IMG/VR virus record: IMGVR_UViG_3300023443_001052
Span: 1-36,377 of that record
Length of the DNA: 36,377 nt
Origin: a virus
Direction: 5' to 3' (one strand)
Of this stretch, positions 4,317 through 34,419 are shown piece after piece (within the stretch, counting starts at the first letter, position 1; every line of letters begins with the position of its first letter). The notes beneath the pieces are model-generated. The model was not told the DNA's origin, did not search any database, and worked only from the letters and a program-made list of their open reading frames with translations. Made by a program: the position numbers and the translations under genes.

Positions 4317-4784
4317 CTAAGATCCTTCTTTACTTGCTCGTGCTTTGAGTTGTGTTAGTGCTGTATCGTTATCTGAATAGAAATTCTCCCTCTTCTCGAT
4401 AAACAACTCGATCGACGGAGAATCGGCTACGTTCTTAAAAACTTCGAGATGTGTACATTGTGTATCATTTTCGACGATTCCCGATTGTTCTAAAGCGTCT
4501 AAAACGCCTTTGATAAAGGCGTCTATATCTCCCCAAGGGATGTCTTTTAAATGCCCTTTTTGGTTCTGTCGAGTCCAATTTGAGACGAGAGTAACAGAAA
4601 CAGAACCTTTGAGTTGAGGGGAGTCTCCCCATTCTCCTCTTAAATAATTCGCAACGGCCAAAACCGTGTGTTTGTATTCGTCTGATTTTTTTACATAGAT
4701 TCTCCGTCCTGCCTTATGTGCCCTGTATGCGCGGTTGATGGCCAACGATCCGGGGGACACGTCTAGGACGAAGTGGTGGATCAC
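4317..4784 (-). CDS. rusA: RusA-family Holliday junction resolvase
   Basis: 155 aa. RusA enzymes are dimeric Mg-dependent nucleases that cut four-way junctions. The diagnostic segment is GDIDAFIKGVLDALEQSGIV followed by ENDTQ. Aspartates at 86, 88 and 107 reproduce the D-x-D-x18-D spacing of the RusA catalytic triad (E. coli Asp70, 72 and 91). An upstream basic stretch, RQNQKGHLKDIPWG, fits the DNA-binding face. The start overlaps the HTH gene stop (ATGA), so the two are coupled. In this phage it probably debranches replication intermediates before packaging. Confidence 0.88.
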   Translation of the reverse strand: MIHHFVLDVSPGSLAINRAYRAHKAGRRIYVKKSDEYKHTVLAVANYLRGEWGDSPQLKGSVSVTLVSNWTRQNQKGHLKDIPWGDIDAFIKGVLDALEQSGIVENDTQCTHLEVFKNVADSPSIELFIEKRENFYSDNDTALTQLKARASKEGS

Positions 4785-5035
4785 CGAGACTCCAAGACGA
4801 AGAATGTAGCAAGCTCTTGATCGTTGTTCACCCGTTCTGTGATATCAACCATAAACCCTAAAGTCTCGACCATCGCAACGATCCTCTCGACTGACGCTGA
4901 ACAATGACCAGAACGGTAATGATAGAGAGTGGTCGGGGATATTTTAAGTTTTTTGGCGATTTGCTTGTGCGTGAGCTCTGTATGGTTCTTGATAATATCA
5001 TCAAGAACCTCATGAAAATTTGTTTTAGACTGCAT
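4781..5035 (-). CDS. Helix-turn-helix DNA-binding regulator, Cro/CI type
   Basis: 84 aa from ATG 5035 with an extended AGGAAGGAAAG purine tract upstream. Residues about 20-45 form a clear HTH: LTHKQIAKKLKISPTTLYHY, with the usual A-K-K-L, S-P-T-T-L and Y layout. The rest looks helical. Such small proteins are phage transcription regulators. A TTGACA hexamer 40 bp upstream (5074-5069) may give it its own promoter inside the long operon. Targets are unknown; the twin early promoters near 19300 and 21300 are candidates. Confidence 0.8.
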   Translation of the reverse strand: MQSKTNFHEVLDDIIKNHTELTHKQIAKKLKISPTTLYHYRSGHCSASVERIVAMVETLGFMVDITERVNNDQELATFFVLESR

Positions 5036-5993: not shown

Positions 5994-7793
5994 TTAGTAT
6001 GAAGCTAGGAAATTATTTTCGTCTTTAGTCCAGTATTCCATCACGGAAGCTTCGGCTCGCACCGGAACATCTGGAGTGAATTTATTAAAGGCATTCACCA
6101 TGATGTTTTTAAGTGCATATGCGCATGTCTTATAGTTTGCTGTTTTAGGCACTTCAATAATGATTTCGTCATGTACAAAATTCACGGTAGGGGTTCCAAA
6201 AAGGGGCGATGAACGATCAAGCATCTGAGCTTTCTGGACTTGGAACAATGCGTTTTTAGCACCGTCTGCCGCGCCCCCTTGAAAAGTACAGTTACATGCG
6301 GCTGTAAAACTACACCCGGTCCTCATACGTTCTGAAAATATTTGCTTGATCTGGTAAGACCCTGGATCGCTTGGCATTTCGCAATCTCTAATGAACTGAA
6401 AAAACAGGCAGGTCTCCGGCCAAGCTAGGACCCATGCTTTTTTAGCTGCGTAGCACTCGTCCAATGTAAGAACGACCCCCCGTCCTTTGGCCTGTTTCTG
6501 CAAAGTGGCCGCTGAACATCCTCCCGGAAAACCGAAGTTCGCGATCTTCGCAACGTCTCTAGCCCTCTTTACATCGGGCGTTTTTTTTCTAGCCAAAGCT
6601 TCTTCATAGGAGATACGCAGTAACTGACTTGCGACCAATAAATGAACGTCTGTTTTTTTGTTGAGTTCTTCCCTCAGTTTCGATTCTCCGAAAACCGTAT
6701 AACAAAACTGAGCGAAGGTATGTAGTTCAGCCCCCGCATAATCACACGCAATAAATACATTCCCTTTTCTCGGAACAAAACACTCACGGACCCCTGAACC
6801 GCCCCGTAAGTTTTGTAGATTAGGTTTCTCACATGAAGTACGTCCCGTCTCTTTGAGCACATCAAATCTAGCATGGATAGGTACAATTCCACCTACCTCT
6901 AAATCTTTCAAAGTCCCGGACAACATGCTTTGAAAATGTGAATAATCTACGTAATTTTGAAAGTTCGGGTCGTTGATCTCCGCACACACCTCTTTGCTGG
7001 TAGCAATAGCCCCCTTTTTAGTCCGGGCCGGCTCTCTGCCTACTGCTTTGAAATAGGCTTCGATCTCCTGTCGAAACTTTTTCACGTTCCTTGTTCCGTC
7101 TCCTCTGACCACCCCCCATTTAATGAGTCGTGCTTTGTTTTTCTCAAATTCTTTTCTAGCCACGCACTTGAGGTCAAATACTTTTTTCGCATCGGTAAGA
7201 ATCCCCCACGAAGAAATAAGATGTAGCGCCCAATCTGCGCGTATTTGTGCGGCATAATCAGGTATTTTACATCCTTTTCGATAACCTAAAACGTCTGTTT
7301 GTTTTTTTGCGATGTCGTACGTCACCCTTGCATCTAGGTTTGCGTATGTGACGGCCTCCTTGGGCCACAAAACTAGTGGTGTATTGGAGAGTTCCGAGTA
7401 TCTTAACCTCCATGTATCCTCTTTCTCAAGTTCTACATCTAAATACTCTTTTGCAAGAACTTGTAGGGAGATCCACTTACTGTATTCTCCCGCATGTAAG
7501 GCGGCGATTCTGTGACATAGAAGTACATCCCAAATCCTCCCTTCCTCAAGTGCGGTGAATGCTGTTTGCGTAATATCTGGCCATTGTTGACAAAGGACCC
7601 CTAAATCAAACGGAGCATTTGCAAAAGCAATCAGAGGTTCTTCTTGGAGTATTCTTCGGGTAATTTCTAGGGTTGTTCCTGCCATGCGATGATTCAAGGA
7701 CTCTGAATTACCGTTTGCGATAGACACCGAAACGAGCTTAGGCGCCTTTTTTCGGGGCTCAAATAAATGTGTCTCTGTATCTATCGCAAGCAT
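5994..7793 (-). CDS. DNA polymerase, family A, with 3'-5' exonuclease
   Basis: 599 aa. It lacks the 5'-3' exonuclease domain of bacterial Pol I, as usual for phage replicases. The proofreading domain is intact: Exo I Asp5/Glu7 (AIDTETHLF), Exo II Asp63 (ANAPFDLGVL), Exo III Tyr150/Asp154 (YANLDARVTYD). The polymerase domain has GRTSCEKPNLQNLRG near 317, motif A ACDYAGAELHTFAQF with Asp351, motif B RARDVAKIANFGFPGG with Lys416 and Phe420, and motif C VNFVHDEIIIEV with His541-Asp542-Glu543. In motif B the position of E. coli Tyr766 is Gly424 and motif A has AGAEL in place of SQIEL, so the nucleotide pocket differs from Pol I. It is the phage replicase. Confidence 0.95.
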   Translation of the reverse strand: MLAIDTETHLFEPRKKAPKLVSVSIANGNSESLNHRMAGTTLEITRRILQEEPLIAFANAPFDLGVLCQQWPDITQTAFTALEEGRIWDVLLCHRIAALHAGEYSKWISLQVLAKEYLDVELEKEDTWRLRYSELSNTPLVLWPKEAVTYANLDARVTYDIAKKQTDVLGYRKGCKIPDYAAQIRADWALHLISSWGILTDAKKVFDLKCVARKEFEKNKARLIKWGVVRGDGTRNVKKFRQEIEAYFKAVGREPARTKKGAIATSKEVCAEINDPNFQNYVDYSHFQSMLSGTLKDLEVGGIVPIHARFDVLKETGRTSCEKPNLQNLRGGSGVRECFVPRKGNVFIACDYAGAELHTFAQFCYTVFGESKLREELNKKTDVHLLVASQLLRISYEEALARKKTPDVKRARDVAKIANFGFPGGCSAATLQKQAKGRGVVLTLDECYAAKKAWVLAWPETCLFFQFIRDCEMPSDPGSYQIKQIFSERMRTGCSFTAACNCTFQGGAADGAKNALFQVQKAQMLDRSSPLFGTPTVNFVHDEIIIEVPKTANYKTCAYALKNIMVNAFNKFTPDVPVRAEASVMEYWTKDENNFLASY

Positions 7794-11611: not shown

Positions 11612-12796
11612 TTACGTTCTCACTTCTATTGCTCGTATGATTTCTTCGGAGACATTGTAGGTGCGAGCGTTCGCCTCAATAGCCGTTTTCATTTCTCGTG
11701 ATACTGGTATCGTAAAATCGCGACCGGTGCCGCATTTTACTTGCAAAAATCTCTCTCTACCCGAGTCTGGCAAATCGACTTCAATCAACGTTCCTACATG
11801 GGGATTCCAATCTGTATCGATGACGGAACATGATAATTGCGACAGAATTTTGTCCCATCCCACTATCTCCGCAATAACCCTTCTTTGTTCCACATTTTCC
11901 CAAGTCAACGCCATCTCCGGCGTAAGAGATTCAGGCTTCTCGATCCACTCAGCTGGAACCCTGACCCCGTGCCACGCATGCACGCCCCATCCGTCTCTAT
12001 ATTTCACTGCTGGGCCCGTTTCGCAATGTAGACGACCTTCAGGGTCTAGGTTCAGTTCAGAATGGCGATGCTGCAAAATAACAGCGTTTTCGTACGGAAT
12101 CCACCATCCGCACGATTCCGTAATCTCCCACAATCCTCGCAACGCTTCACAGTCAACGCCTAACTCGTCATGCATAAACCTATAAAACGATAACCATCCC
12201 GCATCGTGCGAGCCGTAGATTGATGCATCAACGGCTCGCACGACTTGGCCCTCGACTTGGTCCCGGACTTGGTCCCGGACTTGGTCCCCGACTTGGTCCC
12301 CGACTTGGCCCCAGACTTGGTCCCGGACTTGGTCCCGGACTTGGTCCCGGACTTGGTCCCGGACTTGGTCCCGGACTTGGTCCCGGACTTGGTCCCGGAC
12401 TTGGCCCCCGACTTGGCCCCCGACTTGGTCCCAGACTTGGCCCCAGACTTGGTCCCAGACTTGGCCCCAGACTTGGCCCCCGACTTGGTCCCGGACTTGG
12501 TCCCGGACTTGGTCCCAGACTTGGTCCCGGACTTGGTCCCGGACTTGGTCCCGGACTTGGTCCCGGACGTTGGCTTTTAGAAGTGCAGCGGTGAGGCACC
12601 CGCCCAATGGGCTATCTGCAACGAAGACTCTCGCGGGGGGGTGCAGACCTGCGGCTTTATACGCCAATCGTACTCCTTTTTTCGCTCTCCCCAAATCCAA
12701 AGGTTCGCATGACAACCCAATACTCGTCCAACGTTCTACGTATTCGGGAAATTTGGCTTTTTGTTCGTCTGTAAGTGTTTCAATTTTCCTGTCCAT
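11612..12796 (-). CDS. DUF6745-like protein with 27 tandem [RWGE][DG]QV repeats
   Basis: 394 aa from ATG 12796, with AAAGGA 6 nt upstream. ATG 12802 is also possible, and a longer frame to 12892 would overlap the primase gene. N-terminal domain: [20 protein letters not shown] and [20 protein letters not shown]. It is followed by 27 tetrapeptides (about residues 78-185), then the second domain with [49 protein letters not shown] and [11 protein letters not shown]. Both ends match the DUF6745 family of unknown function, with the repeat array placed between its two halves. It lies between primase-helicase and nuclease. The evenly spaced valines suggest an oligomerising rod, which is inference. 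Confidence 0.7.
12242..12565. repeat. Minisatellite: 27 x 12 bp in-frame tandem repeat
   Basis: Unit GACTTGGTCCCG on the given strand, 27 copies, exactly 324 bp, read on the minus strand as [R/W/G/E][D/G]-Q-V. Variation is confined to the codons for the first two residues; the CAAGTC (QV) half is invariant. Since 12 is a multiple of 3, copy-number change would not shift the frame, and all six frames stay open across it, which creates false ORFs on the other strand. Confidence 0.97.
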
Positions 12797-12816
12797 ATTC
12801 ATCCTTTGTTCAAAGT

Positions 12817-15800
12817 TTAGGTTTTCCAAGACACTCGCCACGTTTCGGCCTTGAGCATCCTGTTTCCCTTTTCCATTTTCTGTAAGTAACACGGTGCATA
12901 GTTCCTTACAAGAGAAAAAGAAAAAAAACTTTTCCTTTGCGCGGAACCTCCGGCATTTTTAATCTCCGCTCCCAAACTTCGGAGACGGTAACCCAACCAC
13001 TGCGCTTCAAGAGATTCTTTAGGGGAAAAGATTTTAGGAAAGAAAACATTCATCTTTGCGTAGTTCTCGTCCCACCACACACGAACCTTTTCACGTACCT
13101 TATGAACTTCAAAAACACCTCCTTCTAGATACTCCCCACCTATCGTAAAAACCATCAAATCGTGCATCAGGAGGGCTTGAATGTATTTGTTTTGTGTTTG
13201 TGACTTTTGCCTTCCTTTGTTCCGTCTGTGGTCTCCGTACAGCACTTGATCGCCTTCACCTTCAAACACCCGCAACACGTGCGAAAATAATATTATTTTT
13301 TTTCTATACTTCCCTCCGTTATCCAATAACACCAAATCGTGCGAAACGTTTTCCACCCCATAAAATTCCTTAATGCGCGCTTTTAGTAGTTTTGTTTTTT
13401 CTCCTGATTGTAAAACAGGTTTTTTTTCAATCTCATCTACCTCTTCTTCCGAAATATCTGGAGCTATCGCTACGAAATGTGCGTATTTCTTGTTTCGGTA
13501 CTTCCCCGCATGCTTCACGATTCTCTGAAAAGATTTTGATGCCTGTGTGTCCTTCGTAACCGCTCCCGTTTGATCTAAAACCTCAAATTTCTGCCGTCTA
13601 CACACAGTTTTCAATTGTCCAAGAGGATTGGCACTCGATTCTAGATTTCGTCTTATGAAGATCCTCCAACTCAGCAAAAAACCTTCGTGCTCTTCCGTTT
13701 CATGTTCAGACATGAACGCAGAAGGGAAACGCGCAGCAAAAGCCCGAAGCGTACACTCGTTTTTTGCTTTGAGCATATCCATCAAAAACACCTTATCCGT
13801 TCGGGTCTCGATCGGGGTCCAATTTTTCATTCCTACAAGAATCTCGTCATCTAAAACATTTCTGGCCCTTCGGGCAATTTGTATAACAGTGTTTGCGGGG
13901 ACCTCACGGAACTCATGTAACACAATTACTTTTTGTATTGCAGGAACCAGGCTCACTCCCGATTGAACCGCGGGAGTCATAACAACCAGATCATGGCTAT
14001 TTACGAGATAATCTGTGTCTTCAAGCCATTTCACGGTCTCTGTAAATCTGTTGTTTTCACCAGAAACGAAAAAAGAATTTTCTACGGCTGTGTCATGAAA
14101 TATCTGTAGATCTTCTCCAGACTCCTCTGATAGATCCACCATCACCTGTGCTACCGCTTTGGGGGAGGGGGTCTCTAGACTCTCGGGGATTACGTTCTCG
14201 TCGTCAATCAGGGCAGTTCTTTTCCTAGACACTGTTTGGTATCCGTGGGCGATCTCCCCTGCAAGTTTTCTCGCCGTAAGCCCTACGAAAAGAGGTTTCC
14301 TGTTTTCTTCACTAAGTGCTTCGTGTATTGCGGCTTTAGCTGTTTTCGAAGGCACGAGCCGTACCTTTTGTTTTTTCGATTCAGGTACTCGCACCGCACA
14401 AACGATATGTCTGCACGGATCGATCTTCCGTATCTCTTGTACAAACAACGCAACATCTTCATAAAGTAAATCCGCCGAAGCGATTAAACATCTCCTTGAG
14501 TATGTTGCAAAATTAATGAGTTTTTCCCAACACGCAAGCGGTGCTTTTACTTTTCCTGAATGTAAAAAACAATGGACTGCATCCGCTTCGTCAACATGGA
14601 AAAACTCAGGCGCTTTCATGTACCTCACAATCGAAGGTATGCACACCGAGGCGTGAGGCTCTTCTTGCTCGATACCTTCATAGATTGCTTTAAGGTTCAA
14701 TACCGAGGCGTTTGATATTGTAAGGGCTTGCGTATTACATACCGAAATAGACGACGAAGCCTTTTCATGTTCAGATCTCGCAACAATCGTTTTACCCGTT
14801 CCGTGCGGTGCAATGAGAAAAGTCGTCGTGTGTTCTTCTAATGCTCCAAGATGATCGGATACCCACCCCACGCTCGGCAATAGCCTAACCCCAATACCAA
14901 GAGTTCTTTCCAAAACTTCAGGCAGCTCTTCAAAATATTTTTCAGGCGTAGAGGCCGTAAAAAATGGATCGTTCTCTCCCTCTTGAGGTTCTAACATGGT
15001 CCATTGCCTCGGTGGGGTCGTCGACCAGTCCCAAAACCTCCGCCGACCTTTGAAGTCGGACACTTCCGCAGAGGGCCGGGAGTCGGCCCGGTACGTAGCA
15101 AAGACCCGTTCCCCTGGCCCCAACTCACAAATGGCTTTTTTTGTGTGGCCATCTTCTAGAATTATCTGTGTGGCCGGGTGAACCCAACCGCACCAGAGAG
15201 ATCCTCTTCTCTCCACAGGTTTTTTCGTATGGATGAACCCTTCTAATGCACCCTCGGGGGGTGCGGGGTATTCCGCAAGCTCCTGAGCTACCGACTTCTT
15301 CGCGGATTTTATCTCTACAAATCTCTCATGATTGAAAAAAGGTACGTTCTCAAGAACCCATTTCTCAGTCCATTGTTCAAAGGATATCGACAAATCGTAA
15401 ACTTCGCCGTCTTTATGAATAGATCCCGGTAACACGGCCCCGGTGCTACCCACAACATCCACAGTACCTCTCCCGTACAGTTGGGTATGCGTAGAGACCG
15501 GAATTTTAGAAATGTAGTACCTGTGCCTTATCCTCCCTCCTCGCGTCACACATAAAGGGGTAAGTCCAAAATCTTCAAGTGCTTTTTTTTCACACTCCGG
15601 GTTATCTACATCTACAACCACGTAAAAAAACCGTTTCCCTGAACTGGGTAATATGTAGCTCCCTACGAGGTTCTCTTCGAATCCCTCCACGTCTTTCGAA
15701 TGTAATGACTCAAGTCTCTTTTTCCATTGATCTCTCACCTGCTCGGACGGGTGGGGTGCCCCGGGTCGGTTGTACCCCCGCCAACGAAATGTGCCTTTAG

Positions 15801-15891
15801 TGCCCTTCTCCCCCGGTAATATCGGCAAAGCAATAAACCCCTGCTTTGCGAGAGTGTCTTTTACCTCGTTGTGGAGTTCCCATATTAACAT
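12817..15891 (-). CDS. PrimPol primase-polymerase fused to a DEAD-box helicase
   Basis: 1024 aa, the largest gene here. Residues about 1-200 are an archaeo-eukaryotic primase (bifunctional primase/polymerase) domain: metal-binding Asp94/Asp96 in VVVDVDNPE, His123 in GGRIRHRYYIS, and Asp145 in VDVVGSTGAVLPGSIH. Residues about 230-300 contain RADSRPSAEVSDF in a zinc-ribbon-like position. From 350 comes a helicase: Walker A APHGTGKT (361-368), Walker B FHVDEADAV (literal DEAD at 434-437), TPAVQSGVSL, and an IQIARRARN arginine-finger segment, as in origin-binding/CyRepA-type replication helicases. One polypeptide thus supplies primase and probably origin-opening helicase functions. Confidence 0.85.
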   Translation of the reverse strand: MLIWELHNEVKDTLAKQGFIALPILPGEKGTKGTFRWRGYNRPGAPHPSEQVRDQWKKRLESLHSKDVEGFEENLVGSYILPSSGKRFFYVVVDVDNPECEKKALEDFGLTPLCVTRGGRIRHRYYISKIPVSTHTQLYGRGTVDVVGSTGAVLPGSIHKDGEVYDLSISFEQWTEKWVLENVPFFNHERFVEIKSAKKSVAQELAEYPAPPEGALEGFIHTKKPVERRGSLWCGWVHPATQIILEDGHTKKAICELGPGERVFATYRADSRPSAEVSDFKGRRRFWDWSTTPPRQWTMLEPQEGENDPFFTASTPEKYFEELPEVLERTLGIGVRLLPSVGWVSDHLGALEEHTTTFLIAPHGTGKTIVARSEHEKASSSISVCNTQALTISNASVLNLKAIYEGIEQEEPHASVCIPSIVRYMKAPEFFHVDEADAVHCFLHSGKVKAPLACWEKLINFATYSRRCLIASADLLYEDVALFVQEIRKIDPCRHIVCAVRVPESKKQKVRLVPSKTAKAAIHEALSEENRKPLFVGLTARKLAGEIAHGYQTVSRKRTALIDDENVIPESLETPSPKAVAQVMVDLSEESGEDLQIFHDTAVENSFFVSGENNRFTETVKWLEDTDYLVNSHDLVVMTPAVQSGVSLVPAIQKVIVLHEFREVPANTVIQIARRARNVLDDEILVGMKNWTPIETRTDKVFLMDMLKAKNECTLRAFAARFPSAFMSEHETEEHEGFLLSWRIFIRRNLESSANPLGQLKTVCRRQKFEVLDQTGAVTKDTQASKSFQRIVKHAGKYRNKKYAHFVAIAPDISEEEVDEIEKKPVLQSGEKTKLLKARIKEFYGVENVSHDLVLLDNGGKYRKKIILFSHVLRVFEGEGDQVLYGDHRRNKGRQKSQTQNKYIQALLMHDLMVFTIGGEYLEGGVFEVHKVREKVRVWWDENYAKMNVFFPKIFSPKESLEAQWLGYRLRSLGAEIKNAGGSAQRKSFFSFSLVRNYAPCYLQKMEKGNRMLKAETWRVSWKT

Positions 15892-16497
15892 TCAGTCAAC
15901 GTGCACTACTTGAATTTGAGGAAGAATTCGTGACGGACTGCAAAGAGAACATTCGCAATGTATAGAACTGTAGACACTTCTTTTTCCTACAGCGCCGAAA
16001 CGTACCGTTTTTTTCATATACCCATGGGATGTCAATTTAGTCATAACTCCTCGTATTGTTTCTTTTGATACATCTTGCCCTTTTCTACTAGAAAATTTTT
16101 CTTGTTTGTCGAAACTAGCCGTTACCAATTGGTGCATGTCCTCTGTCTGAAAATGCTCACCCATAAACTGTAATACTCCGAGAGATGATAAAACAACCTC
16201 TTCCACGTCCCACTGCAAAGACCTGGTATTGAATCGAGTATTGCCCTTTTCTGTACCGTATTCATGGCAAATTAAAGCGTCTATGTATCCCCTAGAGCCC
16301 CTCCACTTGAGGAACATGCGGCCCCCCTCAACTTCACCGCGTATGAAACGTCCTACGATTTCTAGATCTCTGACACCCGATATTTGATACTTGTAACGTC
16401 CCCAAGAACCAGTAATTTCGCATAGAGTGAAACATCCGATCTTCTGGACCATCTCACGTACGTATGTTTTCATTTCAGTTTGTATAGTGTTTTTCAT
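15892..16497 (-). CDS. Unknown protein, possible C-terminal winged helix, 201 aa
   Basis: Not recognised. The frame begins at ATG 16497 immediately after the previous stop and ends immediately before the primase-helicase gene, so all three are contiguous. The N-terminal half mixes helix and strands (REMVQKIGCFTLCEITGSWG). Residues about 145-180 (SKETIRGVMTKLTSHGYMKK, then a basic beta-hairpin) look like a winged-helix unit, and a CECSLCSPSRI cysteine cluster follows. Position next to the primase suggests a DNA-binding replication factor, which is inference only. Confidence 0.6.
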   Translation of the reverse strand: MKNTIQTEMKTYVREMVQKIGCFTLCEITGSWGRYKYQISGVRDLEIVGRFIRGEVEGGRMFLKWRGSRGYIDALICHEYGTEKGNTRFNTRSLQWDVEEVVLSSLGVLQFMGEHFQTEDMHQLVTASFDKQEKFSSRKGQDVSKETIRGVMTKLTSHGYMKKTVRFGAVGKRSVYSSIHCECSLCSPSRILPQIQVVHVD

Positions 16498-19035: not shown

Positions 19036-19272
19036 CTAGGTATTATCTGAAATCCAAAGAGTTTCTCCGTCTTCCCGAAGAAAATAATCAAAGTCCAATG
19101 CGGTCTTGGGCAACTTTCCGTCTGACATGAGCACAGAGATCGTGTCATTCGCGTCGTCTAATTTTTTGTCGAAAGGAACCGTGAGAACAATTGCAGTCCG
19201 GTTTTTGTGATGTTCCGGTGTCCCACCCGAGCAAAGGAAAATTATTTTTTTGATGATTGGTTTTTTGTCCAT
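19036..19272 (-). CDS. First gene of the leftward operon, 78 aa, leaderless
   Basis: Start chosen at ATG 19272 (MDKKPIIKKIIFLCSGG). It is exactly 6 nt after the -10 of a strong promoter, so the message would begin at the start codon, and no Shine-Dalgarno precedes it. The alternative upstream frame to 19374 would contain the promoter. Lysine-rich start, then TAIVLTVPFDKKLDDANDTI and an acidic C-terminal half. Function unknown. The same promoter-start geometry begins the rightward operon at 21330. Confidence 0.6.
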   Translation of the reverse strand: MDKKPIIKKIIFLCSGGTPEHHKNRTAIVLTVPFDKKLDDANDTISVLMSDGKLPKTALDFDYFLREDGETLWISDNT

Positions 19273-19278
19273 ATGTGT

Positions 19279-19307
19279 CTTGTAACTTTGTTTATGTTCG
19301 GTGTCAA
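19279..19307 (-). promoter_or_regulatory. Early leftward promoter, leaderless type
   Basis: TTGACA at 19307-19302, 17-bp spacer, TACAAG at 19284-19279, 6 nt, then ATG at 19272. The surrounding sequence (ATTTTCCTTGACA..GAACATA.ACA) is shared with the rightward promoter at 21295. It is placed to drive the whole leftward replication/lysis operon. Confidence 0.7.
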
Positions 19308-19335
19308 GGAAAATAACATGTGTTTTTTGAGAGGG

Positions 19336-19437: not shown

Positions 19438-19462
19438 GTTGTGTATGTGGTAGTTGTGGTGG

Positions 19463-20110
19463 ATGGGTATTTTCAAAAGGTTCATTAAAAAAACAGGATT
19501 CTATAAACTCCGCAGGCGGCACTTTAGGGCAGCTCGGGACTTGGGAACACATGTTCCATTGGTTCGTCGGGATTCGGTCGATCTATCTGGTTCGTACCTG
19601 AATCAGGAAAACGCGATGCGAGCATGGTACAAAAAACACGGAATTGCATTGAAACAGAAACGTGATGCTGCGGTCGATCTGCCTGCGTGGCAAAAATGGG
19701 CCAAAGCGAGCACCACTGTGTTAGTAGCCGGGTTGGATTCGATTTGGTTGTCGTTCGGATTTGAGAGGTTATCTGCGATCGATCGGGTGAGGATTTTAGG
19801 GCATGAGGGGTGCCACGTACTTCAGGATAGGGACGCACCTAGGAAGAGGTTCAGGGGCCATAAGGTCAGTGCGTTTTATTTCAGGTATGCGTTTTCTAAA
19901 TGGAGGTGGGGGTATGAGATCAACTCGAGAGCTTGGGAGGTCCGTTTTTTAGTGAAACAGGGCGAAACGGTGGAGGCCAAAAAACTATTTGACCCCAGAT
20001 CAGTAGATAGGTGGATAGAATACTACTGTTTGGGTCGTATTTCGGACATAAAGGCCCGTAGTACGGGGGTTTTAGAAGAATTCTACCGCAAAGCCCTTGC
20101 TGAACGGTAA
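19463..20110 (+). CDS. Putative zinc metallopeptidase with HEGCH motif
   Basis: 215 aa from ATG 19463; a TTG at 19454 is possible. The motif RVRILGHEGCHVLQDRD gives HExxH (His114, Glu115, His118), and Glu152 in WGYEINSRAWEVRF, 34 residues later, is a candidate third zinc ligand, as in gluzincin-like peptidases. The N terminus is basic and amphipathic (KRFIKKTGFYKLRRRHFRAAR). No clear signal peptide. It is a single rightward gene between two terminators, apart from both operons, so it is separately regulated. Target unknown: host proteins, cell-wall peptides or a domestic peptidase-like role. Confidence 0.6.
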   Translation: MGIFKRFIKKTGFYKLRRRHFRAARDLGTHVPLVRRDSVDLSGSYLNQENAMRAWYKKHGIALKQKRDAAVDLPAWQKWAKASTTVLVAGLDSIWLSFGFERLSAIDRVRILGHEGCHVLQDRDAPRKRFRGHKVSAFYFRYAFSKWRWGYEINSRAWEVRFLVKQGETVEAKKLFDPRSVDRWIEYYCLGRISDIKARSTGVLEEFYRKALAER

Positions 20111-20127
20111 GGTTGCGGCGATCTGGT

Positions 20128-20175
20128 AATCGGGAGTTTCTGGCGAAAGTTTCCAGGTTCTCCTGATTTGTTTTT
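20128..20175 (+). terminator. Intrinsic terminator after the metallopeptidase gene
   Basis: Outer stem AATCGGGAG with CTCCTGATT (one G-T pair), inner stem CTGG with CCAG around a 9-nt loop, then TGTTTTT. It begins 18 bp after the metallopeptidase stop. Confidence 0.75.
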
Positions 20176-20248
20176 AAGTCCTAAGATTCCTGATTCTGGG
20201 GACCTACGAGGTTAGTGGGGGGAGGCACAACAGGCCCTGGTTCTGCGT

Positions 20249-20277
20249 AATTCACCATAACCGGACAGACTTTCTCT
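20249..20277 (+). repeat. Outer core copy S1, left
   Basis: 29 bp containing CCATAACCGGACAGACT. It is the inverse of S2 (21159-21187) with 27 of 29 positions identical, and shares the AATTC-CCATAACCGGACA-ACT core with the palindrome arms. Confidence 0.85.
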
Positions 20278-20298
20278 TAATGATAGGGACTTTGTGGA

Positions 20299-20408
20299 TT
20301 GCGCCAATCACACTGCGAATTCGCCATAACCGGACACACTTTGTTAATATGTATACATATATACAGAGTGTGTCCGGTTATGGCGAATTCGCAGTGTGAT
20401 TGGCGCAA
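20299..20408. repeat. 110-bp near-perfect palindrome P1
   Basis: Two perfect 42-bp arms (20299-20340, 20367-20408) around 26 bp whose middle is itself the perfect palindrome ATATGTATACATAT (20347-20360). All share one centre at 20353.5. Only 3 of 55 pairs mismatch. Each arm contains CCATAACCGGACACACT. No T run follows, so it is not a standard terminator. Confidence 0.95.
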
Positions 20409-20556
20409 AGTACCTATTCTTGATTTAGGTTGGGGTTTTTTAGACCTCCGTTCGGTTTGATGTCTGTGGAAGCAGCAGGATTTGTAACGGTCTGGTTAGA
20501 AATCGGTGGTGTGTGAGAAGGCAGTTTGGGTTCCGGGTATTTGGTCTAGTGCGTAG

Positions 20557-20568
20557 GTCTGTCCGGTT
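20557..20568 (-). repeat. Partial core copy S3
   Basis: GTCTGTCCGGTT, the conserved half of the core seen in S1 and S2, without the GAATTC half. It lies alone between the palindromes, in the orientation of S2. Confidence 0.5.
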
Positions 20569-20786
20569 CAGTGACGACCGACCTCCCCGGACCCGGTATC
20601 GCCATCCCCCTTGGACCAAGGCATTCTTCCTAGGATCGCCTATAAGCAGATAAAAAAGTTCCAGGTACCCTAACAGGCCCCGGACCGATAAAATAAACCA
20701 CGGACGATGCTAGACACCTTAGCTTGTATGTACCGGCTCTATGGGTGGGGAGAATTTTGGTTTCTGGTCAAGGTCCGGTTTTACGC

Positions 20787-20805
20787 AAGACCCGGGTCTT
20801 TTTTT
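20787..20805 (+). terminator. Weak terminator-like hairpin in the noncoding region
   Basis: AAGAC/GTCTT stem with a CCGG tetraloop followed by a T run. The stem is only 5 bp. If functional it implies a short rightward transcript within the noncoding region, but no clear promoter for it is seen. Confidence 0.3.
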
Positions 20806-21013
20806 CGTCCGGGGGTGGTTCATTGAAAATTTTAAGATTTTGAAATTACAAAAACACCGCACCCGGACCAAAAACTCGATATCTGAGTAATTCCCGGACC
20901 GAAGACTCAAAAACCTGTCACCTCGATCTCATCACACACATACCTACATAAAATATTGGTGATCTGACCTCAAATAGTCTGAAATAGGCAAAAACAAGCC
21001 TAAAAACACGATT

Positions 21014-21123
21014 TTGCGCCAATCACACTGCGAATTCACCATAACCGGACACACTCTGTATATATGTATACATATTAACAAAGTGTGTCCGGTTATGGCG
21101 AATTCGCAGTGTGATTGGCGCAA
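21014..21123. repeat. 110-bp near-perfect palindrome P2, inverse of P1
   Basis: Same structure as P1 with centre 21068.5 and the same 14-bp core (21062-21075). Its asymmetric centre equals the reverse complement of the P1 centre, so the two are inverted copies 605 bp apart. The only arm difference is A at 21038 in place of G. Confidence 0.95.
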
Positions 21124-21158
21124 CCCACCCTCACTTAAGATCATACTCCTCCTAATAC

Positions 21159-21187
21159 AGAGAAAGTCTGTCCGGTTCTGGAGAATT
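21159..21187 (-). repeat. Outer core copy S2, right
   Basis: AGAGAAAGTCTGTCCGGTT followed by TGG and GAATT; mirror partner of S1 (27/29). It gives the order S1, P1, P2, S2 with inverted symmetry. Confidence 0.85.
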
Positions 21188-21241
21188 CGAGGACTTTTCA
21201 CCAACCTTCTCAACACATAACGTTCGACACACAAACACTGC

Positions 21242-21312
21242 GTGTATGTTCAAGTAAAAACGCGGCCGTTTCACCAAAGATTCAACTATTTTCCTTGACA
21301 AAGAACATACAC
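21242..21312. promoter_or_regulatory. Inverted 10-mer flanking the rightward -35, operator candidate
   Basis: GTGTATGTTC at 21242-21251 and its exact inverse GAACATACAC at 21303-21312, the latter inside the promoter spacer. The spacer half (GAACATA) is conserved in the leftward promoter. It could bind a regulator, for example the phage HTH protein, with looping. Inference. Confidence 0.4.
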
Positions 21313-21323
21313 AAGTCTAGAAG
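21295..21323 (+). promoter_or_regulatory. Early rightward promoter, leaderless type
   Basis: TTGACA at 21295-21300, 17-bp spacer, TAGAAG at 21318-21323, 6 nt, ATG at 21330. Near-twin of the promoter at 19307-19279. Drives the small early genes and NAD module. Confidence 0.75.
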
Positions 21324-21329
21324 AGGGTT

Positions 21330-21401
21330 ATGGACGAAAATCTTCAGTACATCACACAACAGATCTCAATCGATTTAGGGAGTAGTTGTTCTAATGCATG
21401 A
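21330..21401 (+). CDS. First peptide of the rightward operon, 23 aa, leaderless
   Basis: ATG lies 6 nt after the -10 element, so it should be at or near the transcript 5' end. It encodes a peptide starting MDENLQYITQQISID. Its TGA overlaps the next ATG by 8 nt (ATGCATGA), a coupling style used elsewhere in this phage. The matching promoter-ATGGAC geometry at 19272 supports its reality. It may serve mainly to load ribosomes for the next gene. Confidence 0.5.
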   Translation: MDENLQYITQQISIDLGSSCSNA

Positions 21402-21567
21402 ACTGAAAAACATTAGTAGGGCGGTCGATAAGGCAGTTTCTGAACTAGGTTTTACCAGAGATGAGGTAATCGAACGTTTGGATGGAAATAAACGCGAGCG
21501 GACGGACCTAGAGTCACTGCTCGTAAAAATAGATTCGCTCATTCACCAACGAACGGGGACGGAGTAA
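21394..21567 (+). CDS. Unknown small helical protein, 57 aa
   Basis: ATG 21394 with GGGAG about 10 nt upstream, overlapping the 23-aa peptide. Helical throughout: AVDKAVSELGFTRDEVIERL, then LESLLVKIDSLIHQRTG. Not recognised. Early position in the rightward operon suggests a host-takeover or regulatory role, not shown. Confidence 0.6.
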   Translation: MHELKNISRAVDKAVSELGFTRDEVIERLDGNKRERTDLESLLVKIDSLIHQRTGTE

Positions 21568-21572
21568 TATAT

Positions 21573-22198: not shown

Positions 22199-22405
22199 AT
22201 GATAAGTGAATCGAGAGAACTGAATAGAGCAGTCCGTAGGTTTTATAAAGAAGCTTCTAAAGAGGTTAATTATGATTTTGTGAAAGGGGCAACACTCACG
22301 ATGTTGATATACTTGTTGTTTTTTATCCCATATTACATAGGCGCAATAAACAGATGTAGGACGTTAGATGTTGATGTAGAAATATGTAAGGAAATTTTAA
22401 AATGA
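22199..22405 (+). CDS. Small membrane protein with C-x9-CKEI tail, 68 aa
   Basis: Basic N-terminal helix (SRELNRAVRRFYKEASKE), one membrane helix (TLTMLIYLLFFIPYYIGAI, about residues 32-50) and a tail CRTLDVDVEICKEILK. By the positive-inside rule the tail with its two cysteines would face outward and could form a disulfide. A second small membrane protein at 24855 has the same C-x3-D-x3-E-x-C-K-E-I tail, and the two flank the NAD genes. Stop overlaps the next start (ATGA). Function unknown. Confidence 0.65.
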   Translation: MISESRELNRAVRRFYKEASKEVNYDFVKGATLTMLIYLLFFIPYYIGAINRCRTLDVDVEICKEILK

Positions 22406-23214
22406 ACGATGTATATGTTTTCGATACACTCTTCGAGAAGATCGAATACCCTTCTGGAGAATTTCATATAAAATTGAGAAACGGATCCTACGTAAGACTA
22501 AAAGAGACTTCTTTAAATAAAAAGACAATCACCGCACACATCAGAGATTTCAATGGACTTTGTGAAACAATCACCGCAGACAAAATCTTAAAAAGGGTAG
22601 GTTTAAATGTTCAATGGTTTATTCCGTTTTTCCCTTTTGCGAGAGACGATAGGAGACATTCGAGTAAAGACGGTTCAGAACTTGAACTAGCTTTAGAAAT
22701 GGTCAAAGATCTTGATATAATAGTTGCAGATCCTCACAGTGAAGTATCTGAAACTATTAAACACTCCACACAAGAGACCAGTGTCCAAGTGTTTAAGGAA
22801 CACGGAATATTCAAACCCAACCACCTCGCAATTATACCTGACGCAGGAGCCACAAAAAAAGCAACGACCTGGTTAGGAGGCAAGGACTATGTCCAATGTC
22901 TGAAAAAAAGAGACCCTCTAACAGGTAAACTTTCAGGGTTCCAGGTGTTGACTGAAGACATAAAGAACCGTGACTGCATCATCATCGACGACATATGTGA
23001 CGGAGGAGGTACATTTTTAGGTCTTGCTAAGGAGCTAAAAGAAAAAGGAGCCGGTAGTTTGACGCTTGCAGTTACACACGGGCTTTTTACAAAAGGCACA
23101 AAAGAGCTACGTAGATTTTTCACTAATATCACAGCTTTCGGAGAGAAAGAGAACATCAAAAACGTTTACACCATTCCTTACGAGGAACTTTTACAAAAAG
23201 GGAAATTTGTATGA
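22402..23214 (+). CDS. PRPP-synthetase-like pyrophosphokinase (Prs or Adps-like)
   Basis: 270 aa, shorter than cellular Prs (about 315). Ribose-phosphate pyrophosphokinase fold: ATP-binding FFPFARDDRR (76-85), DPHS (110-113), PDAGATKK (146-153), the catalytic-loop-like KKRDPLTGKL (168-177) and the PRPP-type binding loop IIIDDICDGGGTFLGLA (193-209). Transfers pyrophosphate from ATP to a ribose 5-phosphate moiety. Coupled by ATGA to the NAMPT-like gene. In the described NARP1 system the Prs-like partner (Adps) acts on ADP-ribose, and a true Prs making PRPP for NAMPT is the alternative. Sequence alone does not separate these. Confidence 0.85.
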   Translation: MNDVYVFDTLFEKIEYPSGEFHIKLRNGSYVRLKETSLNKKTITAHIRDFNGLCETITADKILKRVGLNVQWFIPFFPFARDDRRHSSKDGSELELALEMVKDLDIIVADPHSEVSETIKHSTQETSVQVFKEHGIFKPNHLAIIPDAGATKKATTWLGGKDYVQCLKKRDPLTGKLSGFQVLTEDIKNRDCIIIDDICDGGGTFLGLAKELKEKGAGSLTLAVTHGLFTKGTKELRRFFTNITAFGEKENIKNVYTIPYEELLQKGKFV

Positions 23215-24662
23215 ATACACCATTGAACCAAATCGATTTTTATAAAGCAGATCACAGATCACAATACCCTAAAGGGACACAAACAGTATTTTCGAACTGG
23301 ACCCCCCGAGGATCTAGAATCGAAGGTATCGATAAGGTCGTATTTTTTGGATTGCAGTATTTCATCAAGGAATATCTTCAAAAAAGATGGAATGAAGATT
23401 TTTTCAAAAAAGACAAAAACGAAGTTGTTTCCAGATACGCAAGACGTATGAGAAACGCAGGGATAAAAATAGACGTCGATCACATTGAAGCACTCCACGA
23501 CCTAGGATATTTACCTTTAGAATTCTGGGCTCTTCCTGAAGGGAGTAAGGTACCTATCGGTGTTCCTATGTTTGTATTTTGGAACACAGAACCTGAATTT
23601 TTCTGGTTGACAAATTACATTGAGACAAGCCTATCCTCAACAATATGGGGCATGTGTACTTCAGCAACAATAGCCAATCACTACCGGGAGATACTCGAAG
23701 ACGTGGCAGAACGTACAGGAGGCGATAAAGAGATGGTGCCTTGGCAGACACATGATTTCTCGTGCCGAGGTTTATTTGGAATCGAAGCAACGATGCTCTC
23801 AGGAGCCGGTCACCTGCTTAGTTTTACGGGTACTGACACCGTTCCGGCGATCGATTTTCTTGAAGAGTACTATGGCGCGGATTCAGATAAGGAAATCGTG
23901 GGCGGATCTGTTCCTGCAACTGAACATTCTGTGATGTGCATGGGGAAAAAAGAAAGTGAACTAGATACCTACAGAAGACTGATCACAGAGGTTTACCCTT
24001 CAGGTATTGTATCTATCGTGAGCGACACTTGGGATTACTGGAAAGTGTGGACGGAGATTTTACCGAAATTAAAATCCGAAATACTGGGTCGAGAAGGTAA
24101 AGTTGTGATCCGCCCCGATAGCGGAGATCCTGTGAAAATACTTGTAGGTGACCCGGAAGCGGAACCAGGAACACCAGAACACAAAGGGTCGTTCGAAATG
24201 GCGTGGGAAGTGTTCGGAGGACATATAAACGAGAAGGGATTCAAGGTTCTTGATTCGCACATAGGATTGATTTACGGAGACTCGATCACTATCGAACGCT
24301 GTAAAGCAATTTGTGAAGGACTCATCACCAAGGGCTTTGTACCTACGTGCGTTTTTGGAATAGGTTCTTACACGTATCAGTATAACACAAGAGATACTTT
24401 TGGGTTTGCTGTTAAAGCAACTGCGGGAGTAGTCAACGGAGAACTTAGGGAGATATTCAAAGATCCCGAAACAGACAGCGGAGAAAAGAAATCGGCTAAA
24501 GGGCTTCTCAGTGTTCACATAAGCCAAGACGGTGAATATTGGCTTAAGGAAGATTCAACTTGGGAACGCGTGAAGACATGCCATTTCAAACCCGTGTTTA
24601 CAGACGGAAAACTAATAACCGAACAGTCTTTGAGAGAAATACGTGAAAGGATCAGGAAATAA
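23211..24662 (+). CDS. Nicotinamide phosphoribosyltransferase-like enzyme (NAMPT / Namat-like)
   Basis: 483 aa, typical NAMPT length. Signatures: QIDFYKADHRSQYPKGTQTV at the N terminus, HDFSCRGLFGIEATMLSGAG, the catalytic-histidine segment PATEHSVMCMGKKES, SIVSDTWDYWKVW, the phosphate-binding VVIRPDSGDPVKI, and YGDSITIERCKAICEGLITK with FGIGSYTYQYNTRDTFGFAVKA cited in parts. It joins nicotinamide to a pyrophosphorylated ribose: PRPP gives NMN, while in NARP1 the Namat homologue uses ADP-ribose pyrophosphate to give NAD+ directly. The overlap with the Prs-like gene marks a two-gene NAD+ module likely to restore NAD+ during infection. Confidence 0.93.
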   Translation: MNTPLNQIDFYKADHRSQYPKGTQTVFSNWTPRGSRIEGIDKVVFFGLQYFIKEYLQKRWNEDFFKKDKNEVVSRYARRMRNAGIKIDVDHIEALHDLGYLPLEFWALPEGSKVPIGVPMFVFWNTEPEFFWLTNYIETSLSSTIWGMCTSATIANHYREILEDVAERTGGDKEMVPWQTHDFSCRGLFGIEATMLSGAGHLLSFTGTDTVPAIDFLEEYYGADSDKEIVGGSVPATEHSVMCMGKKESELDTYRRLITEVYPSGIVSIVSDTWDYWKVWTEILPKLKSEILGREGKVVIRPDSGDPVKILVGDPEAEPGTPEHKGSFEMAWEVFGGHINEKGFKVLDSHIGLIYGDSITIERCKAICEGLITKGFVPTCVFGIGSYTYQYNTRDTFGFAVKATAGVVNGELREIFKDPETDSGEKKSAKGLLSVHISQDGEYWLKEDSTWERVKTCHFKPVFTDGKLITEQSLREIRERIRK

Positions 24663-31884: not shown

Positions 31885-34419
31885 ATGGCAAACACAGTCA
31901 ACAAAGTCGATCTTACCAAACTACTGTCCACGTTTTTAGGAGAGACCGTAGCTGGAGGCACTTACGATGATGTACTTCAGACGCTAAAAAAAGATAAAGC
32001 AGGTTTCGAAGGTTCAGCAACGGATTCCAAGAATTTTGCGATTCAGGTTTGGTCGAATCTGCAAGACGATATGTTTTTGACCACGTGGGATCGATTTTTT
32101 AAGTCAAACAAGGTTTGGAATTTCGCGGACGATACGGAGAGGGACGGCACAGGAACCGATGAAGGTTTGACGGTTGGAGATCTCAGTGTTTCGTTTTCCC
32201 CTACGTTCTCATTTTCTCGGTGCTTAACGGCAGGTACATCTTCAAGTACATGGACTAGCGTGGCCGCTTCTCCCGAGGTAACAGATCGTAATTCTGTGAC
32301 CGGAGTCATCACACCGACGAATCTAATAACTGTAAATGCAGATCCTACAAAATTCGATTTTGCGGGTGGGCTATTTCAATTTGTAGATTCACACACCGAT
32401 CCACTAAACCCCACACGAGACATAATAACACTCGGACCACAATCAGGCTTAACTTCAACTATCCTATTAACATCTCCGGTAACGTCGATATTAATAGACA
32501 AGGACGGAGTTTTTACATATTTAGACAGAACCCCAACCGGTGAAGAGCTGCGAGAAAAAGCAAATCTTGCAGCTATTATCCATCCCACAGGCTCTATTAT
32601 CGCGATAGAGTTTACACCAAGTTTTGCATGGTCTACGACGAATCTTGCAAGGGATATGGCAAGAAGCCAGGGGACAAGGAACGACGCAGGGAATAGATAT
32701 ATTCCGAACCCTGCAGCAGATCTGACGTTCAACAAAACACCAGGTAGAATAAGTGGTGATTGCATAAACGGAGGGGACACAGCAAACCCTAATGTAAAAA
32801 ACACACCTGTCTACGATCCTGTAGGTACAGGAGACAATATCCTATTCTATACGTACCAATCCGCTACCCCCGGTATGTGGATAAACCCTTTACTAACGCA
32901 AATAGATCCAGAATTCTGGGACGACGGTTCGGGTACCTTAGCAGCCGTGCCCCTAGGAATGTTTACGATCCAAACTATATATTTCACAGTACCTGTCAAT
33001 ACGGCAATACACTACGGACAAAAATTATACATTACATTCGAAGATGCTCTAGCAGGGATTACACTTGACGAAGCACTACGTGAAATTAACCCAGCTACGA
33101 ACCCTGCATTACACCAAGAAAATTTGATCGTACAACAAGGGACTTTAAATCTCACAGACCTCGCCAAAGCACAGTTTCTAGAGGCCGGACCCGGAGGCGG
33201 TGGTTCAGGAGGTCCGGGATCAGACACAGACGCAATACACGATAACGTGGATGGAGAGATCTCGGCTATTACCCAAAAGGCTACTCCCATTGGTGCAGAC
33301 CATTTGTTGATTGAAGACTCTGCCGCATCGGATGCTAAGAAGAGAATCCTAATTTCATCATTACCTGGTGGAACCGACGATGACGCAATCCATGACAACG
33401 TCGACGGGGAAATATCCGCTATCACTCAAAAATCAACCCCCGTGGGCGCAGACCACTTGCTCATTGAGGATTCGGCAGCATCCGATGCGAAGAAAAGGGT
33501 TTTGATCTCAGATCTTCCGGGAGGAACAGATGACGATGCGATTCACGATAACGTGGATGGGGAAATTTCTGCTATCGCTCAAAAAGTTACACCTACTGGT
33601 ACAGACTATTTACTCATTGAGGACACAGCGGCATCGAATGCAAAGAAGAGAATCTTAATTTCGTCATTGCCAAGTGGAACCGATGACGATGCAATACATG
33701 ACAACGTAAACGGAGAAATAGCTGCCGTCACTCAGAAAGTTACTCCCATAGGTGCTGATCATCTTCTGATCGAGGATTCATCAGCATCGAATGCCAAGAA
33801 ACGGATCTTAATTTCCTCATTACCGGGAGGAACAGACGAAGACGCAATTCACGATAATATCAACGGAGAAATATCTTCGATTACCCAAAAGGTTACGCCT
33901 GTAGGTGCTGATCATCTACTCATAGAAGATTCAGCCGCGTCCAATGCAAAGAAAAGAGTTTTAGTATCTTCGCTTCCTGCGATCCCTTCAGATCTAACAA
34001 AACACTTCACGTCACATAGTTACGAAGTGAGTAACTCAGGAGATTTCTATCTACTGTTCGGAGGGTCTGATTCAGGATCGGGTAATAAAGCGGACTCCAT
34101 CACACCCAGTAGGAGCTCCACACCGGAAGCATATTTCTTTGCGGGACACGACGGTAGGTTGATTCAAGTAGCGATTTCTACAGAAACGGTGGGCTCTCAA
34201 TCCGATGACGTGAATATTATACTAAGAGCTAACGATCTTACACTAGAGACCATAAACCTGAATTTTTCATCGAACAGAAACCAAACGGCAGTGTTTACAA
34301 GTGCAGCAGAATTTTCAAAATACGATGCTATGACTATCGAGCTCGATCAGGTGAGTGATTTTGACAATTGGGACGAGGTAGTAATTATGTGCACTTGGGA
34401 ATTGGACACCAGTACTTAA
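31885..34419 (+). CDS. Fibre-like virion protein with five 51-aa repeats
   Basis: 844 aa. Start contiguous with the previous stop. Residues 1-430 are beta-rich and unrecognised (VNKVDLTKLLSTFLGETVAG start). A glycine linker (GPGGGGSGGPG) leads into five copies of a 51-aa unit, typical piece TPVGADHLLIEDSAASDAKK, from codon 447. A C-terminal beta-rich domain of about 135 residues follows. AITQK..P.GAD.lLIEDS units are common in phage tail fibres and spikes. It lies inside the neck gene cluster, not after the baseplate, so it may be a capsid or collar fibre. Confidence 0.6.
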   Translation: MANTVNKVDLTKLLSTFLGETVAGGTYDDVLQTLKKDKAGFEGSATDSKNFAIQVWSNLQDDMFLTTWDRFFKSNKVWNFADDTERDGTGTDEGLTVGDLSVSFSPTFSFSRCLTAGTSSSTWTSVAASPEVTDRNSVTGVITPTNLITVNADPTKFDFAGGLFQFVDSHTDPLNPTRDIITLGPQSGLTSTILLTSPVTSILIDKDGVFTYLDRTPTGEELREKANLAAIIHPTGSIIAIEFTPSFAWSTTNLARDMARSQGTRNDAGNRYIPNPAADLTFNKTPGRISGDCINGGDTANPNVKNTPVYDPVGTGDNILFYTYQSATPGMWINPLLTQIDPEFWDDGSGTLAAVPLGMFTIQTIYFTVPVNTAIHYGQKLYITFEDALAGITLDEALREINPATNPALHQENLIVQQGTLNLTDLAKAQFLEAGPGGGGSGGPGSDTDAIHDNVDGEISAITQKATPIGADHLLIEDSAASDAKKRILISSLPGGTDDDAIHDNVDGEISAITQKSTPVGADHLLIEDSAASDAKKRVLISDLPGGTDDDAIHDNVDGEISAIAQKVTPTGTDYLLIEDTAASNAKKRILISSLPSGTDDDAIHDNVNGEIAAVTQKVTPIGADHLLIEDSSASNAKKRILISSLPGGTDEDAIHDNINGEISSITQKVTPVGADHLLIEDSAASNAKKRVLVSSLPAIPSDLTKHFTSHSYEVSNSGDFYLLFGGSDSGSGNKADSITPSRSSTPEAYFFAGHDGRLIQVAISTETVGSQSDDVNIILRANDLTLETINLNFSSNRNQTAVFTSAAEFSKYDAMTIELDQVSDFDNWDEVVIMCTWELDTST
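33223..33987 (+). repeat. Five tandem 153-bp coding repeats
   Basis: Units begin at 33223, 33376, 33529, 33682 and 33835, with exact 153-bp spacing. Protein identity between units is high, while synonymous positions differ (for example GACGCAATA, GACGCAATC, GATGCGATT), so they are older duplications kept by selection. Confidence 0.92.

Follow-up and report, generated by a model that had tools for sequence, protein, structure and literature searches.

The noncoding island at 20.25-21.19 kb of the viral DNA analysed here is probably a phage replication origin (we put the probability at about 0.6) of the iteron type, with its boxes arranged pairwise as palindromes that enclose an AT-rich centre. 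The window, that is, the whole stretch of DNA that was analysed, is a complete IMG/VR record of 36,377 bases that is classed as a linear virus. Because end repeats are absent from the window and neither tape-measure nor distal tail genes were identified, the record is probably a fragment of a previously undescribed tailed-phage genome. The features that bear on the origin reading are listed in Table 1.

Table 1. Features of the candidate origin and of replication-related genes in the window (positions are those of the window).
Feature	Position	Strand	Remarks
Noncoding island enclosing the whole structure	20111..21572		largest gap between likely genes
Half-site H1 (AATTCACCATAACCGGACAGACTTTCTCT...)	20249..20282	+	repeat families D3/I4; 2 mismatches to the 25-nt arm consensus
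Palindrome P1, a pair of inverted AACCGGACAC boxes flanking an AT-rich centre	20299..20408		52/55 pairs
Lone AACCGGACA box between the palindromes	20560..20568	-	exact match
Six further CCGGAC boxes	20587..20899		at 20587, 20680, 20773 rev, 20807 rev, 20863, 20894; five are CCGGACC
Palindrome P2, reverse complement of P1 bar one base	21014..21123		51/55 pairs
Half-site H2, mirror image of H1	21155..21189	-	I4/I5; 4 mismatches to the arm consensus
Family A DNA polymerase, same replication operon	5994..7793	-	PF00476 E=6e-33; phrog_17
1024-aa protein with Prim-Pol and CyRepA1-like helicase regions, candidate initiator or helicase	12817..15891	-	PF09250, NF042913
201-aa protein adjoining the 1024-aa gene	15892..16497	-	possible box-binding protein, speculative

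The window starts with terminase, portal, and head genes. Proteins of replication and DNA metabolism are encoded in a leftward operon that runs from ~18.96 kb to 3.69 kb; they comprise the 1024-aa Prim-Pol/CyRepA1-like protein, a PD-(D/E)XK nuclease, a DEAD/SNF2-type helicase, the family A DNA polymerase, RusA, and a dATP/dGTP diphosphohydrolase-like protein. The genes of a rightward operon, from 21.57 kb onward, are those for small proteins, PRPP-synthetase-like and NAMPT-like proteins, and then structural proteins. The PRPP-synthetase-like and NAMPT-like genes lie side by side at 22402-24662 (+) as a phage NAD-salvage pair, and an 844-aa structural-looking protein contains 153-bp (51-aa) repeats at 33217-33975. 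The GC skew flips with gene direction and was uninformative on the origin.

The island adjoins the junction of these two divergently transcribed arms. It is 1462 bp long, compared to 442 bp for the second-largest intergenic gap in the window, and contains no convincing gene, in agreement with the noncoding setting given in a preliminary description of this DNA. That the only large noncoding gap adjoins the junction between the leftward replication genes and the rightward genes counts in favour of an origin. The palindrome site is flanked by a 218-aa ORF and a 112-aa ORF, the former of which (19454-20110, +) carries HEGCH, an HExxH zinc-metalloprotease-like motif, and has no family match. A 54-nt inverted pair at 19262-19315 and 21287-21340 was also found, the copies of which are 78% alike with an ATGGAC start about 30 nt downstream of each; these are divergent promoter-like or start-site elements.

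The preliminary description had reported two near-perfect palindromes in inverted orientation, and rechecking reproduced their coordinates, sequence, and length of 110 bp, with 3 and 4 mismatched pairs in 55. In P1, the 42 outer pairs are perfect and the mismatches fall at pairs 43, 47, and 48, whereas P2 has one additional mismatch, at pair 25; hence, of the 42-bp arms described as perfect or near-perfect, those of P1 are perfect and those of P2 only near-perfect. The common 14-bp core, ATATGTATACATAT, occurs only twice in the window, at 20347-20360 and 21062-21075. The relationship of P2 to P1 was likewise as described: of 110 positions, 1 differs between P1 and the reverse complement of P2, compared to 7 when P2 is taken directly. 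Taken to its full extent, the inverted similarity gives arms of 116 nt that are 98% complementary and separated by 603 nt. Because the arms are so similar, a short-read assembly leaves it ambiguous which way round the intervening segment of roughly 600 bp lies, and its orientation may be an assembly choice.

When palindromes with 40-bp arms were sought throughout the window, P1 and P2 had 37 and 36 of 40 pairs, respectively, whereas the third-best had only 26, and each palindrome folds 19.5 standard deviations below shuffled sequences (the P1 DNA fold is -61.8 kcal/mol, z -19.5). Therefore, chance is ruled out, and P1 and P2 with their surroundings are a real and unusual structure. The 30-mer at the P1 centre (20338-20367) is more easily melted than all but 22 of the 36,347 in the window, an easily melted AT-rich element of the kind expected of an origin; it stands out in 30-mers and not in 60- or 100-bp windows. 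A search against Rfam gave only microRNA hairpins below the gathering score, as is expected of any long perfect hairpin. A terminator or RNA reading was rejected: the island has only short terminator-like sites, and P1 and P2 do not form the stem of any of them. The earlier argument that the retention of two long palindromes implies strong function is reasonable, and it is weaker than was claimed because 110 bp falls short of the palindrome length that is usually regarded as inviable in E. coli.

The preliminary description had missed two features, the mirror-image half-sites outside of the palindromes and a cluster of CCGGAC boxes. The palindrome arm carries TTCRCCATAACCGGACACACT, and H1 and H2 are the same half-site standing alone in opposite orientations. 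Seven of the eight copies of AACCGGACA in the window are within the island: four in the palindromes, two in the flanking half-sites in mirror orientation, and one single. The shorter word CCGGAC occurs 13 times in the island compared to the 0.47 occurrences that its frequency in the rest of the window predicts (Poisson P about 5e-15), a figure that leaves out a 12-bp coding repeat at 12.2-12.6 kb; such a cluster, far above chance, is what an iteron-type origin should contain. The coding repeat is an in-frame array (12245-12580, DQVR/GQVW units) in a 426-aa ORF at 11612-12892 (-), a DUF6745 protein. The layout H1-P1-...-P2-H2 is a near-mirror, with the dyad centre at 20711 for P1/P2 and at 20718 for H1/H2. 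Symmetry evaluated from box positions alone, without the P1/P2 homology, was not significant (p = 0.17), and the mirror layout is considered real because of the 116-bp homology and not because of the box positions.

These features suggest how such an origin might work. A phage-encoded initiator would recognise AACCGGACA within a half-site of about 30 bp, two of which face one another in each palindrome across the AT-rich, easily melted centre. Two initiator units per palindrome could bend and melt the centre or extrude a cruciform, the latter being possible and not required, and the opened centre would then admit the helicase, primase, and DNA polymerase of the leftward operon. The near-mirror layout could let assembly proceed from either side and the origin fire in both directions, or might represent two adjacent origins.

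The likeliest helicase-primase of the phage, judging from its sequence, is the 1024-aa Prim-Pol/CyRepA1-like protein, which matched PF09250 at E=1.4e-4, at the family cut-off, and CyRepA1 (NF042913) at E=4e-23 with 82 bits, below the curated cut-off of 200. There is experimental support for CyRepA1 as an initiator of plasmid replication (PMC9978351). The resemblance of the window to the cyanobacterial plasmid pSYSA CyRepA1 replicon lies in this helicase region, itself a match below the curated cut-off; in contrast, small RNAs beside the rep gene take part in replication control in pSYSA, and PMC9978351 nowhere uses the words "palindrome", "iteron", or "inverted repeat". Against the origin reading, the 1024-aa gene is 4.4 kb from the island and not adjacent to it. 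The C terminus of the 201-aa protein resembles a winged helix by eye, which makes this protein a speculative candidate for the box binder; a Pfam scan of it gave nothing above the cut-off, and its structure model (pLDDT 32) was unusable.

A functional parallel is herpes simplex virus (HSV) oriS, in which inverted initiator boxes, bound by the origin-binding protein UL9, flank an AT-rich spacer that melts (PMC12543377). The island resembles oriS in having inverted boxes around a melting AT-rich centre and two copies in inverted repeats (PMC12543377), but the virus and sequence are unrelated, and the island has 42-bp perfect arms and solitary boxes outside of them. The UL9 family (PF02399) was not found in the window, and the likeness to oriS is best regarded as a functional analogy only. 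A narrower version of the origin reading, in which the two 110-bp palindromes are twin oriS-like sites with face-to-face initiator sites, a gene-free core, a Prim-Pol/CyRepA1-like initiator, and perhaps cruciform extrusion, is a tentative possibility. The origin of the PLE satellite, which is noncoding and is bound by RepA_N at 13-bp inverted sub-repeats that act as iterons, is similar to the island in its noncoding location and long inverted sub-repeats (PMC7145576). However, it consists of direct repeats of semi-palindromes and uses a RepA_N initiator (PMC7145576), a family absent from the Pfam scans of the window.

Similar boxes were found in other phages. A scan of IMG/VR for the pattern AACCGGACA-N20..49-TGTCCGGTT yielded 39 stretches, about eight of which are dense CCGGACA arrays, several beside D5-type, Prim-Pol/AAA_25, or AAA_25 genes. 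A further scan, for three successive copies of TGTCCGG, gave among the matches listed 33 iteron-like contigs that were split from 15-bp-period coding repeats of the same word, 16 contigs of which served as controls in the search for helicase genes. Among these listed matches, an AAA_25 helicase gene was present in 18 of the 33 iteron-like contigs, always within 1.11 kb of the array and most often with the array at the 3′ end of the gene, and two more contigs had a D5-type gene 28-37 bp from the array, giving a primase-helicase context in 20 of 33. In contrast, AAA_25 was present in 4 of the 16 controls, at a distance of 9-14 kb from the array in the three that were measured. Some array contigs are related to one another, and the counts are not all independent. 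In three arrays (L101:8221-8502, L123:2580-2872, and L156:10826-11118), all 12 TGTCCGG/CCGGACA boxes are in dyad symmetry, and those of L101 and L123 lie 28-37 bp from D5_N/DUF5906 helicase genes. These three arrays look like phage origins, and the position of the TGTCCGG arrays in general suggests that they are origins. Literature searches for arrays of this type found none, and those for GTCCGG or CCGGACA iterons gave nothing relevant. The analysis also brought up a recurrent AACCGGACA-N27-TGTCCGGTT family around ATCCTATA/TTATAGC (L099:3283, L107:12354, L114:831, L120:1738, L128:7170, and others), which lies upstream of terminase-looking genes and is probably a regulatory element common to these contigs.

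Isolate phages with RepA-type helicases have arrays of other words in the same place, 3′ of the helicase gene. Of the six isolate records that were looked at, the L251-L254 set has ACTACAAA arrays in Roseobacter phages CRP-811/823 and GCGTGACA arrays in Rhizobium phages 16-3 and RHph_X2_25, in each case just downstream of the helicase gene, and a CCCTTTAGGG-type palindrome accompanies these lineage-specific arrays (L251, L252, L253, and L254). The other two (L255 and L256) have no obvious array of this kind. Because the RepA-type helicases of these phages adjoin ACTACAAA and GCGTGACA arrays, iteron words are lineage-specific, and the sharing of CCGGACA between the window and the arrays may be coincidence.

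The arrays and the island are alike in their clusters of CCGGACA/TGTCCGG in both orientations, in some palindromic centres, and in a replication-gene context. They differ in that the arrays adjoin a helicase gene with boxes often every 9-10 bp, whereas the island has a half-site of about 30 bp located 4.4 kb from its candidate helicase, which belongs to a different family from the AAA_25 and D5-type genes. By profile comparison, no DNA-binding domain was shared between two proteins of the window and the helicases beside TGTCCGG arrays. Therefore, the primase-helicase context of the arrays gives moderate support, by analogy, to the origin reading, in a search that was seeded with the window's own motif; the common CCGGACA plausibly indicates that such a box can be an origin iteron, without proving that the window's box is one.

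No close relatives of the phage were found. In IMG/VR, searches with the 218-aa protein, the polymerase, the 1024-aa protein, and a single-sequence terminase query gave no confirmed locus. A search with a terminase alignment brought up 80 distant loci, the best at 50% identity; in 51 records, neither a CyRepA1-like protein nor a homologue of the 1024-aa protein was present. With the 1024-aa protein as tblastn query, phages and plasmids yielded no hit and genomes a single match of 22 residues, and the island DNA had no match in phages or plasmids.

An alternative is that the boxes are bound by a phage regulator that governs the two divergent transcription units, with the palindromes as high-affinity or looping operators in an operator or silencer region. 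The location of the island between the leftward and rightward operons, the promoter-like 54-nt inverted pair with its TTGACA, and an 84-aa HTH protein encoded at 4781-5035 (HTH_3) are consistent with this explanation. However, usual operators are far shorter than 110-bp palindromes with 42-bp arms, most of the boxes are hundreds of bp from the promoter-like sites, and a promoter scan showed no excess (2 sites compared to 4.4 in shuffles). We regard operator function as unlikely in place of an origin; it is possible that the boxes serve in both origin function and regulation.

It is improbable that the island is instead a partition, packaging (pac), or recombination-switch site, in which the boxes would bind a segregation or packaging protein or P1 x P2 recombination would invert the roughly 600-bp segment. 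The inverted 116-bp arms could readily recombine, but the segment between them contains no convincing gene, and the large-terminase gene is 19 kb distant. Clustered boxes are also found at parS-like sites, and a partition site had been among the earlier suggestions; this lost ground when Pfam scans of nearly all likely genes in the fragment detected neither ParA nor ParB.

The preliminary description had also likened the palindromes to telRL, where a protelomerase would turn each into two hairpin ends, and had noted that no protelomerase was visible in the window. The large near-perfect palindromes, with a nested perfect core and near the junction of two arms, share the macro-layout of telomere phages such as N15 and PY54, in which a protelomerase gene lies immediately upstream of a telRL that separates the genome arms (PMC10612081). 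Those phages have one site and a protelomerase gene, whereas the window has two sites with half-sites outside of them and no large gene beside the site. Searches of the 36-kb fragment with the ResT/TelK family (PF16684) and tyrosine recombinase (PF00589) profiles gave no match even at E = 10, which bears out the earlier remark on protelomerase and counts against the likeness itself, although a divergent gene, or one lying beyond the fragment, may have escaped these searches. In addition, resolution at two sites 715 bp apart would cut out a mini-fragment, and lone half-sites and other boxes would be left unexplained. Telomere resolution is thus very improbable.

Equally doubtful is a repeat of mobile or host origin (a MITE-like element whose 116-bp terminal inverted repeats enclose a gene-free core) or an assembly artefact: an arm 22-mer (one N) had no copy in 84,980 species genomes, which makes unlikely the dispersed host repeat that had been named as a refutation, phage and plasmid collections showed no similarity, three 16-mer matches in IMG/VR were isolated and look like chance, no target-site duplication was visible, the box half-sites reach beyond the arms, and the two copies, which are set in unlike flanks, are not identical but have a one-base difference.

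Taken together, the box clustering, the dyad layout, the melting centre, the position, and the replication-gene context of similar boxes elsewhere support the replication origin proposed in the preliminary description, and do not demonstrate a hairpin origin in the literal sense. If the island is a true origin, it would be a clear natural case of paired long palindromes retained as replication-start machinery in a bacterial virus, and a testable system consisting of a 1-kb DNA fragment plus one operon. It would bear on the ways in which viruses retain palindromes despite replication and nucleases, which should destroy them, and on whether inverted boxes around a melting centre emerged separately in phages and herpesviruses. 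Noncoding TGTCCGG arrays, often beside the primase-helicase genes of unrelated phages, may also be an aid for spotting phage origins in metagenomes.
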